DNA of 64,000 nt from Sphingobium yanoikuyae (lineage in GTDB: Bacteria > Pseudomonadota > Alphaproteobacteria > Sphingomonadales > Sphingomonadaceae), in contig NZ_CP053021.1 in assembly GCF_013001025.1 (NCBI RefSeq), forward strand, positions 5,153,001-5,217,000. Direction: 5' to 3'. The position numbers and the translations under genes are program-made. The notes beneath the pieces were generated by a model. It ran no database searches. It saw only the letters and a list, made by a program, of their open reading frames with translations, and was not told where the DNA came from. The number at the start of each line of letters is the position of its first letter. Position 1 is the first letter of the stretch. This document shows positions 41,697-48,582 of the stretch, piece after piece.

Positions 41697-41782
41697 GGAC
41701 AGGTGGCCGAGTGGTTAAAGGCAGCAGACTGTAAATCTGCCCGGGTTTCCGTACGCTGGTTCGAATCCAGCCCTGTCCACCA
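41697..41782 (+). tRNA. tRNA-Tyr (GTA anticodon), CCA encoded
   Basis: The acceptor arms GGACAGG (41697-41703) and CCTGTCC (41772-41778) pair fully. The anticodon stem GCAGA/TCTGC presents GTA at 41731-41733. There is a long variable arm, as in class II bacterial tRNA-Tyr, and a T arm CTGGTTCGAATCCAG. A discriminator A is followed by encoded CCA. Confidence 0.97.
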
Positions 41783-41867
41783 CTGCCCTCATCGGCGCGC
41801 CGCCTCTTTCGGGTTTCCGGTCCGCGCGCCGCTCCAGCCGAGCCCGTTACCGCAAGAGGAACGCCGC

Positions 41868-42188
41868 TTGGCCTGGGTCATTCTCGGCATCGCCGTATTC
41901 ACCGAAATCATCTGGGCATTGAGCCTGAAATGGGCCGCCACCGTCGGCAGCTGGCAGGCTTCCGTCGTGCCCATTGCCCTGAGCTTCCTCAACATGGGGC
42001 TGCTGGCGCTGGCGATGCGCGATCTGCCGGCGGGCACCGCCTATGCGATCTGGACGGGCCTGGGCGCCGTGGGCGTCATCATCGGCGGCATGATTCTCTA
42101 TGGGGATCGGGTCAACATGGCCCAGATCGGCTTCATGGCGATGATCGTGATCGGCGTGGTCGGCACCAAATTGTCGGCCCAGGCGTGA
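41868..42188 (+). CDS. Small multidrug resistance (SMR) family exporter, SugE/Gdx-like
   Basis: 106 residues, four transmembrane helices. The TTG start is preceded by AGAGGA and gives the normal SMR length. Features: FTEIIWALSLKWA with the membrane-embedded Glu in helix 1, GTAYAIWTGLGAVG in helix 3 and IIGGMILYGD before helix 4. The WA-x-S-L-K-W pattern places it nearer the guanidinium/quaternary ammonium exporter (Gdx/SugE) group than EmrE. It works as an antiparallel dimer using protons. It follows the tRNA by 85 bases. Confidence 0.88.
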   Translation: MAWVILGIAVFTEIIWALSLKWAATVGSWQASVVPIALSFLNMGLLALAMRDLPAGTAYAIWTGLGAVGVIIGGMILYGDRVNMAQIGFMAMIVIGVVGTKLSAQA

Positions 42189-42349
42189 TTGCTTCTCCTG
42201 ATTCGCGTAACATGATTCGGCGCATGGCCTGATCGCGGGATCGGGGCGTCGCGCCGCAGGCTTATTGCCGCAGCGCAACAAAAACGGCGGAAGTCCGTTT
42301 GTCTTCGGACAAGCCCCGTTCATTCTTCCCCGGTTACGCTCTCCCCCGC

Positions 42350-44635
42350 ATGACTCTTGATCGCCGCGACCTCCTCATCCGCACCCTGGGCGGTGTCCTC
42401 GCCCTTGGCATTCCCCGCCGCGCGCTGGCGCAGGCCGACGTCGCCCGCGTCGATGCGCTGATCGCGAAGATGACGCTGGAGGAAAAGGCTGGGCAGATGA
42501 CCTGCCTGGCCGACAGCTTCCGTCCCTTCAACCCGCCCAACCCGGCGGCCGGCATCCAGGACGAGAAGCGCCTGGCCGACGAGATTCGCAAGGGCCGGGT
42601 CGGCTGCCTGTTCAACGGAATCGGCGTTGCCGGTGGGCGCCGCGCGCAGGAGATGGCGGTCAAGAACAGCCGCCTGGGCATCCCGCTGCTGCTGGCGGGC
42701 GACGTGATTCACGGCCTCAAGACCATCTTTCCCGTGCCGCTGGGGGAGGCTTCCTGCTTCGATCCGGTGCTGGTGGAAAAGACCGCGCGGGTCATGGCGG
42801 TGGAGGCGACGGCGGCCGGCCTGCACCTCACCTTCGCGCCGATGGTCGATGTCGCGCGCGACCAGCGCTGGGGCCGGGTGGTTGAAGGCGCGGGCGAGGA
42901 TGTCTATCTGACCGGCCTGTTGTCGGCGGCGCGGATTCGCGGCTTTCAGGGGCGCGACCTGCGCCGCGACGATTCGCTGCTCGCCTGTCCCAAGCATTTC
43001 GCCGCCTATGGCGCGGTCGCCGCGGGCCTCGAATATGGCAGCGTCGACATCAGTGACGAGACGCTGCGCGAAACCCATTTGCCGCCCTTCGGCAAGGCCT
43101 TTGCCGCCGGTGCGCTCACCACCATGGCCGCCTTCAACGAGATTAACGGCGTGCCCGCCACCGCCGACCGCGAATTGCTGACCGACATATTGCGCGGCGA
43201 GATGCAGTTTCGCGGCTTCGTCTTCTCCGATTACACCGCCGACGAGGAACTGGTCGCCCATGGCTTTGCCGAGGATGAGCGCGACGCCGCCCGCCTCGCG
43301 GTGCTGGCCGGGGTCGACATGTCGATGCAGAGCGGCCTCTATATCCGCCACATCCCCGATCTGGTGAAGAGCGGCGCGGTGCCGATGGCGACGGTCGATG
43401 TCGCGGTGCGCCGCATCCTTTATGTGAAGACCGCGATGGGGCTGTTCGACAATCCTTATCGCTCGCTCGACGAAGAGGTTGAAAAGGCGCGCATCGGCAC
43501 GCCCGCCCATCATGCTTTGGCGCGCGAGGCGGCGGCCCGATCGGTCGTGCTGCTCAAGAATGACGGGGTGCTGCCGCTCGATCCCGCTGCCGGGCAAAGG
43601 ATCGCGCTGATCGGCCCGTTCGGCGAGGACAAGGCCAATCTCTACGGCCCCTGGGCCTTTTACGGCGATCCCGACAAGGGCGTCGACATCGCCACCGGCC
43701 TGCGCGCGGCGATGCCCGATCCCGCAAAGCTGACGGTCGAACTGGGTTGCGCGGTCAACGGCCCGATCAAGGACGGGATCGCCCGTGCCGTCGCCGCAGC
43801 GAAGGCGGCGGACGTGGTGATCCTGGCGGTTGGCGAATCCCAGGCGATGTCGGGCGAGGCGCAATCGCGCACGATGATCGAGCTGCCCTCCTCGCAACAG
43901 GCACTGGCCGATGCGATCGCCGCCACCGGCAAGCCGGTCATCGTGCTGCTGCGCCATGGCCGCGCGCTCGCTTTGCATGATGGTGTCGCCAATGCGCAGG
44001 CGTTGCTGGCGACCTGGTTCCTGGGGTCGGAAACCGGCCATGCGCTGGCCGACATAATGTTCGGCAAGGTCGATCCCTCGGCCAAGCTGCCGGTCAGCTT
44101 CCCCTGGGAAAGCGGGCAGGAGCCTTTCTTCTACGATCGCAAGTCGACCGGCCGACCGACGGTGGACAATGGCAGCACCGAATATAAGGCGCGCTATGCC
44201 ACCACCGACAACAGCGCCCGCTTCCCCTTCGGCCATGGCCTCAGCTACACCGATTTCGCCCTCAGCGACCTGAAGCTCTCCGACACCGCGCTGCGCTGGG
44301 ACGGCGCGGTGGAGATCACCGCGCGCCTCACCAACAAGGGCAAGCGCAAGGGCAGCGAGGTGGTGCAACTCTATATCCGCGACCGCGTCGCCAGCCGCAC
44401 CCGCCCGATCCGCGAACTGAAGCGCATCCAGCGCGTCACTTTGTCGCCGGGCGATTCCACCCAGGTCCGCTTCACCCTGTCGCGCACCGACCTCGAATTT
44501 GTCGGCGCCGGCAACCGCCGCCTCGCCGAACCGGGCCTGTTCGACCTGTGGGTCGGCCAGTCCTCGACCGGCGGCCTGCACGGCCAGTTCACCCTCTACG
44601 CGGCATCTCCAACGTCCTCGTCACCCCGGGCTTGA
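42350..44635 (+). CDS. Glycoside hydrolase family 3 beta-glucosidase (BglX-like), exported
   Basis: 761 residues. Tat-like leader (LDRRDLLIRTLGG). GH3 N-terminal barrel: KMTLEEKAGQM, the KHFAAYGAV motif, and the nucleophile Asp in GFVFSDYTAD. The C-terminal domain (VVLLKNDGVLPLD) and a fibronectin-III-like tail (EVVQLYIRDRVASRTRP) complete the BglX layout. It should act in the periplasm on beta-linked oligosaccharides. The last residues (about TSSSPRA) are encoded by the flanking REP-like repeat, so the natural stop has probably been replaced. The ATG has no clear ribosome site. Confidence 0.9.
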   Translation: MTLDRRDLLIRTLGGVLALGIPRRALAQADVARVDALIAKMTLEEKAGQMTCLADSFRPFNPPNPAAGIQDEKRLADEIRKGRVGCLFNGIGVAGGRRAQEMAVKNSRLGIPLLLAGDVIHGLKTIFPVPLGEASCFDPVLVEKTARVMAVEATAAGLHLTFAPMVDVARDQRWGRVVEGAGEDVYLTGLLSAARIRGFQGRDLRRDDSLLACPKHFAAYGAVAAGLEYGSVDISDETLRETHLPPFGKAFAAGALTTMAAFNEINGVPATADRELLTDILRGEMQFRGFVFSDYTADEELVAHGFAEDERDAARLAVLAGVDMSMQSGLYIRHIPDLVKSGAVPMATVDVAVRRILYVKTAMGLFDNPYRSLDEEVEKARIGTPAHHALAREAAARSVVLLKNDGVLPLDPAAGQRIALIGPFGEDKANLYGPWAFYGDPDKGVDIATGLRAAMPDPAKLTVELGCAVNGPIKDGIARAVAAAKAADVVILAVGESQAMSGEAQSRTMIELPSSQQALADAIAATGKPVIVLLRHGRALALHDGVANAQALLATWFLGSETGHALADIMFGKVDPSAKLPVSFPWESGQEPFFYDRKSTGRPTVDNGSTEYKARYATTDNSARFPFGHGLSYTDFALSDLKLSDTALRWDGAVEITARLTNKGKRKGSEVVQLYIRDRVASRTRPIRELKRIQRVTLSPGDSTQVRFTLSRTDLEFVGAGNRRLAEPGLFDLWVGQSSTGGLHGQFTLYAASPTSSSPRA

Positions 44636-44649
44636 CCCGGGGTCCCGCT
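44619..44649 (+). repeat. Left copy of 31-bp inverted repeat (REP-like) flanking the GIY-YIG gene
   Basis: A 31-base element with internal hairpin ACCCCGGG-CTTGA-CCCGGGGT. The exact reverse complement is at 44973-45003. The left copy contains the end of the GH3 coding sequence, including its TGA stop. The element type (CACCCCGGGCTTGACCCGG) resembles REP sequences that are common in sphingomonad genomes. Confidence 0.92.
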
Positions 44650-44666
44650 TTGCAAATGTTCGCAAC

Positions 44667-44966
44667 ATGGCGCGCGAACGGCAGGGCGGATGGGTCTACA
44701 TCATGGCCGATCGGTATCGGGGCACCCTCTATGTCGGCGTGACCGCCGATCTTGCTGCCCGAATCCATCAACATCGATCCGGTACGGGGGCCGACTTCTG
44801 CGCCCGCTATGGATTATTCCGGCTTGTGTGGGCCGAGCATGGCGACGACATGCTGAGCTGCATCGCCCATGAGAAGCGCCTCAAACATTGGCGCCGGCAA
44901 TGGAAGTTCGACCTGATCGAAGGCGCCAATCCGGACTGGCAGGATCTGTTCGACCAGATTGTCTGA
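44667..44966 (+). CDS. GIY-YIG nuclease family protein
   Basis: 99 residues. The GIY half appears as WVYIM (9-13) and the YIG half as LYVGVT (21-26). ARIHQHRSG supplies the conserved Arg and EKRLKHWRRQWK a Glu (69) and a basic helix; ANPDWQDL is the usual end. Small stand-alone GIY-YIG proteins of this group (YhbQ/UPF0213-like) are predicted structure-specific endonucleases. The gene and its 17- and 6-base margins fill the space between two perfect 31-bp inverted repeats, like cargo of a mobile unit. There is no neighbouring transposase. Confidence 0.88.
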   Translation: MARERQGGWVYIMADRYRGTLYVGVTADLAARIHQHRSGTGADFCARYGLFRLVWAEHGDDMLSCIAHEKRLKHWRRQWKFDLIEGANPDWQDLFDQIV

Positions 44967-44972
44967 CGCAGT

Positions 44973-45003
44973 AGCGGGACCCCGGGTCAAGCCCGGGGTG
45001 ACG
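44973..45003 (-). repeat. Right copy of 31-bp inverted repeat flanking the GIY-YIG gene
   Basis: Exact reverse complement of 44619-44649, beginning 6 bases after the nuclease stop. It can form the same 8-bp hairpin and may also end transcription of the nuclease gene. Identity over 31 of 31 bases indicates recent origin or gene conversion. Confidence 0.92.
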
Positions 45004-45149: not shown

Positions 45150-47414
45150 ATGTCCACGACCCGCATTTCCACATTCGCCCTGGCGTGCGCGCTGCTCGCC
45201 AGCCCGGCGCTCGCCGCCGATCCCAAGCCCAAGCCGGCGCCGCAGGCCGACACCGTGACCGAGGCGCCCAAGCCGCCCGTCACCGAAAAGCCCGGCGGCA
45301 TGACCAACAAGGACTGGTGGCCCAACCGCCTGGACCTTACCGCGCTGCGCCAGCATGAGGCGACCCGCGCCAATCCCTATGGCGCCGACTATGATTATGT
45401 GAAGGAATTCAACAGCCTCGACCTCGAAGCGGTCAAGGTCGACATCCGCAAGGTGCTGACCACGTCGCAGCCCTGGTGGCCGGCCGACTATGGCCATTAT
45501 GGCCCCTTCTTCATCCGCATGGCTTGGCACAGCGCCGGCACCTATCGCGTCGGCGACGGCCGTGGCGGCTCGGATGGTGGCGAACAGCGGTTCGATCCGC
45601 TCAACAGCTGGCCCGACAATGTCAGCCTCGACAAGGCCCGCCGCCTGGTCTGGCCGATCAAGCAGAAATATGGCCGCAAATTGAGCTGGGGCGACCTGAT
45701 GGTCCTGTCCGGCAATGTCGCGCTGGAGGATATGGGCTTCAAGACCGTGGGCTTTGCCGGCGGCCGCATCGACGCCTGGCAGCCGGACGTCGTCTATTGG
45801 GGCCCGGAAACCAAGATGATGGGGACCGAGCGCTCCAATCCCGACGGCTCGCTCAAGCGTTCGCTCGCCGCGACCACCATGGGCCTCATCTATGTGAACC
45901 CCGAAGGCCCCGGCGCCAATCATGATCCCAAGGGCGCCGCCGCCGACATCCGCCGCGCCTTTGGCAATATGGCGATGGATGACGAGGAAACGCTGGCGCT
46001 GATCGCGGGAGGCCACACCTTCGGCAAGGCGCATGGCGCCAAGAAGCCCGAGGAATGCCTGGGCGCGGAACCCGCCGCCGCCGGCATCGAGGATCAGGGC
46101 TTCGGCTGGAAGAACAAGTGCGGCAAGGGCAATGCGGAGGATACGCTGACCTCGGGCCTGGAGGGCGCCTGGTCGGCCACGCCGACCCAGTTCACCACCC
46201 AATATATCGACAATCTGCTGAACTTCGACTGGGTGAAGACCAAGAGCCCGGCCGGCGCGACCCAGTGGATCCCAACCGATCCCGCCACCGCCAGCATGGT
46301 CCCCGACGCGCATGTGAAGGACAAGCGGCACGCGCCGATCATGTTCACCACCGACATTGCGCTCAAGGAAGATCCCGGTTTCCGCAAGGTACTGGAAAGC
46401 TGGCAGAAGAATCCCGAGCTGTTCAGCAAGGCCTTCGCCCGCGCCTGGTTCAAGCTGACCCATCGTGATCTCGGCCCGCAGGTTCGCTATCTCGGCAAGG
46501 ACATTCCGTCCGAAACCTATAGCTGGCAGGATCCGCTGCCCAAGGCGAGCTTCGCCCCCGTCAGCGCCGCCGATCAGGCCAAGCTGAAGGCCGCTGTGCT
46601 GGCGTCGGGCCTGACCGGGCCGGAACTGGTGCGCACCGCCTGGGCGTCGGCCGCGACCTTCCGCAGCACCGACATGCGCGGCGGTGCCAATGGCGCGCGC
46701 CTGCGGCTCGATCCGCAGCGCGGCTGGGCGGTCAACGATCCGGCGGAGTTGAACAAGGTGCTGGCCAAGCTGACTGCGATACAGAAGGATTTCGCGAAAT
46801 CAGGCAATCAGGTGTCGATGGCCGACCTCATCGTCCTGGGCGGTAACGCCGCGGTCGAGCAGGCGGCGCAGAAGGGCGGCTACAGCATCACCGTGCCGTT
46901 CACGCCGGGCCGCGTCGATGCCGCGCAGGCACAGACCGATGTCGCCTCCTTCGCCTATCTGGAGCCCAAGGCGGACGGCTTCCGCAACTGGTATGGCCCC
47001 AGGGCGGAGGTCAGCCCGGCCGACGCGCTGGTGGACAAGGCCGATGCCCTCGACCTCACCGTGCCGGAAATGACCGTGCTGGTCGGCGGCATGCGCGCGC
47101 TCGGCGCCAATAGCGGCGGATCGAAGAATGGCGTGCTGACCACCCGTCCGGGCACGCTCAGCAACGACTTCTTCGTCAACCTGCTGACGATGGACACGGT
47201 GTGGAGCAAGTCGGCGACGCCGGGCCTCTATGACGGCAAGGACCGGGCCAGCGGCGCGGCGAAGTGGACGGCGACCCCGGTCGACCTGATCTTCGGCTCC
47301 AACTCCGAACTGCGCGTCGTGGCCGAAGTCTATGCCGAGGATGACGCAAAGGAGAAGTTCGTCACCGACTTCGCCGCCGCCTGGACCAAGGTCATGAACG
47401 CGGACCGCTTCTGA
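45150..47414 (+). CDS. katG: Catalase-peroxidase (KatG), with export signal
   Basis: 754 residues. The N-terminus [22 protein letters not shown] is a Sec signal peptide, unusual because most KatG proteins are cytoplasmic. The core is complete: [11 protein letters not shown] (distal Arg/Trp/His), [10 protein letters not shown] and [11 protein letters not shown] (Tyr and Met of the Trp-Tyr-Met cofactor), [12 protein letters not shown] (proximal His), and the C-terminal duplicated domain. It degrades hydrogen peroxide and oxidises donors, here probably in the periplasm. AGGGGAGAGAAAC precedes the ATG. A 10-base palindrome GAATCGATTC is at 45066, and a terminator follows. Confidence 0.93.
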
Positions 47415-48494: not shown

Positions 48495-48582
48495 CGTCAT
48501 TCCCGCGCAGGCGGGAATCCATCTCCTGACCTTGTATCTGGTCCGACGCTGGCGAGATGGATCCCCGCCTCCGCGGGGATGG
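48495..48582. repeat. Composite REP-like palindromic element
   Basis: A hairpin ATTCCCGC-GCAG-GCGGGAAT (48499-48517) and a second ATCCCCGC-CTC-CGCGGGGAT (48561-48580) are joined by ATCCATCTC and GAGATGGAT, which are themselves complementary across about 30 bases. The unit could fold into one large cruciform. Its core (CGTCATTCCCGC) is like the well-known intergenic repeats of proteobacteria. It fills the gap before the siderophore receptor terminator. Confidence 0.75.

Follow-up and report, generated by a model that had tools for sequence, protein, structure and literature searches.

Within a 64,000-nucleotide stretch of the Sphingobium yanoikuyae genome (contig NZ_CP053021.1, positions 5,153,001 to 5,217,000; the whole stretch is called the window here), a gene for a small GIY-YIG nuclease lies between two inverted repeats belonging to the repetitive extragenic palindromes (REPs) tagged by the tetranucleotide CGTC. 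Comparison of this 385-bp unit with related loci strongly supports a unit that is mobile, bounded by REPs and equipped with a GIY-YIG nuclease of its own. The unit probably represents a minimal mobile element, in which the gene between two CGTC REPs with outward heads would encode the nuclease driving movement. The original prediction, made from the letters of the window, had placed a gene of 99 codons inside a perfect 31-bp inverted repeat, 17 and 6 bases away. Exact coordinates agree: the open reading frame (ORF) starts 17 nt past the left arm and ends 6 nt short of the right arm.

44619..45003, plus strand: whole unit (REP, GIY-YIG gene, inverted REP), 385 bp; carried by the window and genome G017, absent from the same place in genomes G050, G029 and G021
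44619..44649, plus strand: left CGTC REP; head CGTC 44619-44622, stem 44623-44630 / 44636-44643, loop 44631-44635, tail 44644-44649
44973..45003, minus strand: right CGTC REP, identical to the left arm, head outwards
44667..44966, plus strand: GIY-YIG nuclease gene, 99 amino acids; ATG at 44667, stop codon ending at 44966; conserved Y11, Y22, R32 and E69
44619..44620, no strand: CG of the left head; the three sites lacking the unit also have CG at the equivalent position; together with 45002-45003 a possible target or 2-bp duplication, seen at one site only

Both arms (44619-44649 and 44973-45003) are 31 nt long, 100% complementary and spaced by 323 nt, with the CGTC heads facing outwards and the tails facing the nuclease gene. 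Each arm alone is predicted to form a hairpin with an 8-bp stem and a 5-nt loop (-10.4 kcal/mol, z -2.64) beside the unpaired CGTC. The exact 31-mer occurs at only these two places in the 5.94-Mb genome of the window (G000). Five more sites were found at up to three mismatches, and the control with the reversed pattern gave none.

The window protein matched the Pfam family PF01541 (GIY-YIG) as a single domain (E 5.1e-12; 46.3 bits, cut-off 22.6) and, up to E 1, had no Pfam match to PF01797 (Y1 transposase). All its database matches were of the GIY-YIG type, and none belonged to the DDE, HUH, serine or tyrosine class of transposases. An arrangement like that of REP-associated transposases (RAYTs), with a GIY-YIG enzyme in their position, had been proposed and is supported. 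Among the best 80 of 142 related loci, the closest named relative by nuclease is Sphingobium scionense with 96% protein identity. The catalytic positions are conserved in the relatives (Y11 in 188/190, Y22 in 190/192, R32 in 189/192 and E69 in 192/192). The ratio of non-synonymous to synonymous substitution rates had a median of 0.088 and a maximum of 0.22 in 121 pairs; judged from these ratios, the nuclease is under purifying selection.

Like UPF0213 and Slx1-type proteins, the window protein has a single GIY-YIG domain with Tyr, Tyr, Arg and Glu. Its closest solved structures by sequence, 1zg2 (E 7.7e-9) and 1ywl (E 3e-4), are both UPF0213 proteins. A Foldseek search with the predicted structure, which had a mean predicted local distance difference test score (pLDDT) of 91.4, returned 1zg2 as best match (E 2.2e-3) followed by Slx1 (from E 0.064), with a probability near 1. 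The GIY-YIG enzyme ANKLE1 nicks a single strand of a supercoil-extruded cruciform (PMC10287932) and Slx1 cleaves branched DNA close to the branch point (PMC6902002). An activity of the window nuclease on REP hairpins is plausible.

Palindromes of the CGTC class and their gene-less copies

CGTC-tagged REPs were described by Di Nocera et al. 2013 (PMC3733652). These REPs consist of a CGTC or variant head, an 8-9 bp stem, a 4-5 nt loop and a short tail, occur mainly as head-to-head pairs and are hosted mostly by Alphaproteobacteria. No transposase gene flanked by CGTC units was reported there and associations were only fortuitous; the agent spreading these REPs was left open, with the suggestion that a transposase has possibly disappeared. 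The arms in the window have the CGTC head, an 8-bp stem, a 5-nt loop and a tail. The first stem positions are AC in the window type and AT in the type of that paper. The palindromes in the window are members of this known class and not a new one. The string 'GIY' occurs nowhere in PMC3733652. Among the titles listed from the openly licensed literature, none connects GIY-YIG proteins with REPs, and a description elsewhere is possible. Two of the listed papers contain both 'giy-yig' and 'repin' and by title deal with restriction enzymes; the one paper combining GIY-YIG with palindromes and Sphingo- is on LexA.

REPs also occur apart from nuclease genes. Three gene-less head-out pairs were present in 1.26 Mb of the window's own genome, and further gene-less pairs of the window's REP type exist. 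Lone REPs carrying the tail CCATCTCC of a second GIY-YIG unit (L002) were seen three times in this genome, one of them with a variant stem and one in the window at 48495, while the element L293 of a gene-less pair carries the tail TCTCACTT of a third unit (L005). GTC preceded 23 of 588 perfect hairpins in the 1.26 Mb, second to CGC with 26, which is a weak test because this genome has few REPs. The scattered gene-less REPs of matching type are, by their sequences, probably non-autonomous derivatives. In the REPIN idea, small repeats descend from the ends of a gene-bearing unit, and the derivatives fit this idea.

Association of GIY-YIG genes with matched palindromes

A flanking inverted repeat was counted as matched when it reached a score of at least 16 within 200 nt of the gene. 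Three sets of loci were scored: the window's own genome, the best 80 of the 142 related loci, and a phylum sample of 110 loci from 88 of 299 Pseudomonadota genomes with a match. The phylum sample, in which L124 is the window itself, was drawn from the matches listed and leaves out fragments and matches below about 65 bits except 13 distant ones; the loci read cover 67 genomes besides G000. PF01541 matched six proteins of the own genome. Four of them are encoded by stand-alone genes, each in a different head-out CGTC REP pair; the fifth, L001, is of a distant type with another repeat, and the sixth, L006, is presumably UvrC-like. Matched flanking repeats were found at 4/4 of the stand-alone genes, 68/80 related loci and 74/110 loci of the phylum sample, the latter including 59 of 75 in the window's class when its own copy is excluded. 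At the same loci, the score was reached at 0/297 neighbouring ORFs and 0/1210 random positions, ruling out chance or shared composition as source of the repeats. A strict search that required a CGTC-type hairpin with an outward head on either side of the gene recovered 4/4, 48/80 and 29/110 loci versus 0/2442 random positions. Many loci missed by it have longer or imperfect palindromes.

Matched head-out pairs were also found on plasmids of Novosphingobium (L237), Sinorhizobium (L238) and Sphingobium (L240), and the GIY-YIG gene on plasmid AZO_p3 of Azospirillum lipoferum 4B (L239) is located between sufB and sufC and has REP pairs to its left and right. The Photobacterium plasmid locus L241 had no clear flanking repeats. 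Outside Pseudomonadota the comparison comprises two plasmid loci, Spirosoma L234 and Planktothrix L235, with GTCAT-headed palindromes beside the gene and no clean matched pair. As a negative control, 14 loci of a distant GIY-YIG subfamily (43-56 bits) had been chosen. In fact, 8/14 of these loci (L001, L364, L365, L367, L369, L374, L375 and L376) reached a score of at least 16 with palindromes of other kinds, for example CGTTCGCCCTGAGCTTGTCGAAGGGC and ...CCCTGAGCTTGTCGAAGGG...

Repeat type and nuclease vary together. A partner test within each of 33 genomes with at least two genes (82 genes) identified the own right arm as best partner of the left arm in 63/68 cases, which rules out that any REP of the same genome would match. 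Arms of other units paired at a score of at least 16 in 31/140 cases, and many of these cases come from genomes whose units are nearly identical, for example G251, G135 and G129. Cross-locus arm pairs matched at the same score in 348/1581 cases because many loci have the window's REP type in common. Between genomes, the arm type was common to 203/241 gene pairs at 75-90% identity and 295/450 at 65-75%, and to just 92/5616 at 45-55%; within one genome it was common to 0/20 pairs at 45-55%. Over all pairs, the rank correlation was modest (0.22), and 0/500 permutations were as high. By these sequence comparisons, repeat type tracks nuclease lineage and not the host.

The same link appears in REP abundance. 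With the window clade defined by a best E up to 1e-40 (our cut-off), at least three copies of the window's REP pattern were present in 17/26 genomes with a clade gene versus 17/173 others among 199 genomes of the family. Three of these 17 REP-rich genomes without the clade gene (G104, G211 and G294) carry another GIY-YIG unit whose REP is similar (L167, L215 and L172). Repeat and gene are strongly linked, and this link has its limits in the lone REPs, the gene-less pairs and the 17/173 genomes.

Duplicated units and empty sites

Between units in unrelated flanks, homology stops mostly at the heads. Heads were located at both ends in 130/213 loci (163 loci had matched arms), and a register filter removed 384/1077 gene-spanning pairs with heads out of register. 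In the in-register pairs, homology stopped within 4 nt of the CGTC head in 596/687 cases on the left and 597/687 on the right. Less redundant best pairs gave 38/54 and 35/54, and omission of the register filter 730/1064 and 680/1064. A homologous flanking ORF was common to only 33/947 gene pairs with at least 65% identity.

Several genomes contain multiple copies. The window protein has 14 matches in G445, a single contig, and eight of these were read as loci; five copies at five places (L344-L347 and L349) are 94-97% identical. L349 matches only from about codon 18, and its start seems to be broken as judged from the alignment. In G398, two copies at different places (L361 and L362) are 99.8% identical over 458 bp and have a frameshift in the nuclease gene in common; therefore, a broken copy was duplicated. 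The metagenome-assembled genome UBA1936 contains two copies (L016 and L021) with 82% identity over a stretch that starts exactly at CGTC and stops exactly at GACG. In G445, the sequence reached by the common segment outside the REPs contains GCGGACA-like motifs and is perhaps another repeat hosting the units.

At the orthologous site of the window, 101 bp in G050, G029 and G021 correspond to 49 bp, the 385-bp unit and 50 bp in the window and in G017. The flanks of the three relatives agree with the window to within 2 bp, and no REP is present at this site in them. The two bases at the break point are CG in all three, which at this one site may possibly be a target or a 2-bp duplication. Any target-site duplication is at most this CG, and the other three unit sites of the genome show no clear one. 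At these sites, the gene is present in 6, 4 and 2 of 12 close genomes. At the L005 site, the unit is inverted between colinear flanks in G029 (L270; about 398 bp, minus strand, 90% identity) and a lone REP is found in G067. The L002 site holds two diverged versions of the GIY-YIG gene in different relatives (L242, L243, L245, L246, L247 and L250). The L347 site lacks the unit in the one further genome of G445's genus that was compared, with flanks that are about 80% alike and too diverged for exact junctions. These empty sites, the duplicated units within genomes and the linkage of gene and repeat support the predicted mobile element of 385 bp. A repeat distributed independently of GIY-YIG genes, with neither empty nor duplicated sites, would have spoken against that prediction and is not what was found.

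The surroundings of the unit comprise the following features:

42299..44635, plus strand: upstream ORF, presumably glycoside hydrolase family 3-like, with a stop codon that now falls within the left REP; in G050, G029 and G021, which lack the unit, the frame closes at another TGA
45150..47414, plus strand: downstream gene, which we take to be catalase-peroxidase-like; it served to locate orthologous sites
48495..48526, plus strand: lone CGTC REP of the type found at the L002 unit (other GIY-YIG gene of the genome), with the same tail

Further upstream, the first part of a 161-aa ORF (41703-42188) is probably spurious because a tRNA-Tyr gene (41697-41782) underlies its start.

Proposed mechanism and alternative explanations

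A mechanism can be proposed for the REP-bounded element. The Slx1-like nuclease would recognise the hairpin or cruciform formed by its own REP and nick its base by the CGTC head. Through this nick, the segment between the REPs would be released or copied to new places, in at least one case at a CG dinucleotide, and host repair or replication would complete the insertion. For the partner enzyme that CGTC REPs have so far lacked, this nuclease family is the best candidate, and its role would parallel that of RAYTs for GTAG REPs with unrelated chemistry.

Several observations weigh against this reading. Neither activity nor movement was observed. Foldseek gave no match at E up to 0.001. Matched repeats were lacking at 36/110 loci of the phylum sample and 12/80 related loci, and in the other classes of the phylum sample they were found at just 14/34 loci. 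Among 145 units whose arms match, the GTC head was at the outer end only in 94, at both ends in 22, at the inner end only in 14 and at neither in 15. At the Neisseria plasmid locus L236, the GIY-YIG gene has dRS3-like repeats with heads towards the gene. The Fisher p of 1.9e-9 for the link between gene and REP abundance comes from a statistic that ignores phylogeny. Junctions at the genome's other three sites are unclean: intergenic sequence is replaced at L002, and about 20 nt are extra on either side at L003. Furthermore, the best pairs of G445 and G398 have a common segment reaching 17-56 nt past the left and 25-52 nt past the right heads. The moving piece in these genomes is slightly longer than the REP-bounded unit because this segment exceeds the heads by tens of nt.

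GIY-YIG is a classical homing endonuclease domain (PMC1564403), and the nuclease might instead cut REP-containing sites, with break repair copying the unit in and the REPs serving as targets and not as ends. Gene-less REP pairs resemble possible unoccupied sites of such an enzyme, and the two divergent gene versions at the L002 site would suit it. However, the window site has no REP in the three relatives lacking the unit, where a cryptic target sequence is possible, and most gene-less versions of the other three sites show no REP near the junction. The single-domain window protein also has none of the NUMODs (DNA-binding extra domains) that are typical of this group (PMC1564403). We consider homing unlikely. 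The nuclease gene could also be cargo that happens to sit between REPs, with the CGTC REPs moved in trans by some other enzyme, for example a RAYT or the transposase of an insertion sequence. REPs do move or persist without the gene, the common frameshift of the G398 copies implies for at least this unit that copying took place in trans or followed the break, and 7/24 genomes have a PF01797 match. On the other hand, PF01797 gave no match in 17/24 genomes including those of the window and of the five-copy G445, other transposase classes not having been searched. Cargo would leave the purifying selection unexplained as well as the REP type following nuclease lineage, and the fortuitous transposase associations of PMC3733652 speak against it too. 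Transport in trans appears improbable, somewhat more so than homing.

Strong purifying selection and the Slx1-like fold of the predicted model would also suit a host gene, that is, a structure-specific repair nuclease with REPs as terminators or regulators, or a domesticated gene of formerly mobile origin; REPs might act as RNA elements (PMC3733652). Close homologues are nevertheless found in unrelated contexts, as seen from the few flanking ORFs in common (33/947 pairs). Moreover, units come and go between close species and copies multiply within a genome, where domestication of some copies is possible. Such a host function seems very improbable for the unit.

Returning to the nuclease-driven element, a broader proposal has about an even chance of being correct. 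Stand-alone Slx1-like GIY-YIG nucleases would be mobilisers of an unrecognised class of elements, bounded by palindromes and without a known transposase class, and CGTC REPs, possibly with dRS3 and its relatives among them, would stem from these nucleases; a second GIY-YIG subfamily would act likewise on unrelated palindromes. If true, this would answer what spreads CGTC REPs, the question left open in PMC3733652, and would assign a function to a large bacterial GIY-YIG protein family. It would also mean that the combination of REPs with an enzyme came about on the basis of two DNA-cutting chemistries that are unrelated. A dedicated nuclease under selection, present with its repeats in fresh multiple copies, would then provide a defined enzyme together with its substrate.

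Comparison with known systems

Insertion sequences have terminal inverted repeats, as does the unit, and a transposase of a known class (DDE, HUH, serine, tyrosine), which the protein of the unit is not. For GIY-YIG homing endonucleases, an empty site should hold the interrupted recognition sequence, here a REP, and none is present at the window site. UPF0213 and prokaryotic Slx1-type proteins are minimal single GIY-YIG domains like the window protein, and their neighbourhoods with methyltransferases were noted for the UPF0213 type in Lactobacillales in the 2006 GIY-YIG survey (PMC1564403). The words 'palindrom' and 'inverted' occur nowhere in PMC1564403. Cruciform nicking by ANKLE1 (PMC10287932) is the activity proposed for the window nuclease. 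In the structural comparison with the predicted model, Slx1 is the next closest fold after 1zg2. Slx1 and ANKLE1 are larger eukaryotic enzymes of cellular repair with further domains or partners, and we know of no link of either to a repeat family.

The CGTC REPs covered by PMC3733652, including Neisseria dRS3 and Rickettsia RPE-4 and RPE-6, have the head, stem, loop and head-to-head pairing seen in the window. No dedicated enzyme is described for them in that paper, whereas the REPs of the window enclose a GIY-YIG gene. The closest parallel in organisation is the REPtron, composed of a RAYT and GTAG REPs. As described in the same source, REPtrons resemble the unit in having a small enzyme gene between inverted palindromic REPs, several REP types per genome, each with its own enzyme, and many gene-less REPs and REP pairs. 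In contrast, the REPtron has an HUH/tyrosine enzyme and a GTAG head, and the unit a GIY-YIG enzyme with no Y1 match and a CGTC head. Enzymes of REPtrons cleave their REP at the head, as the window nuclease would in the proposed mechanism. The unit would work like a REP/RAYT module but is none, as its enzyme is unrelated and Slx1-like.

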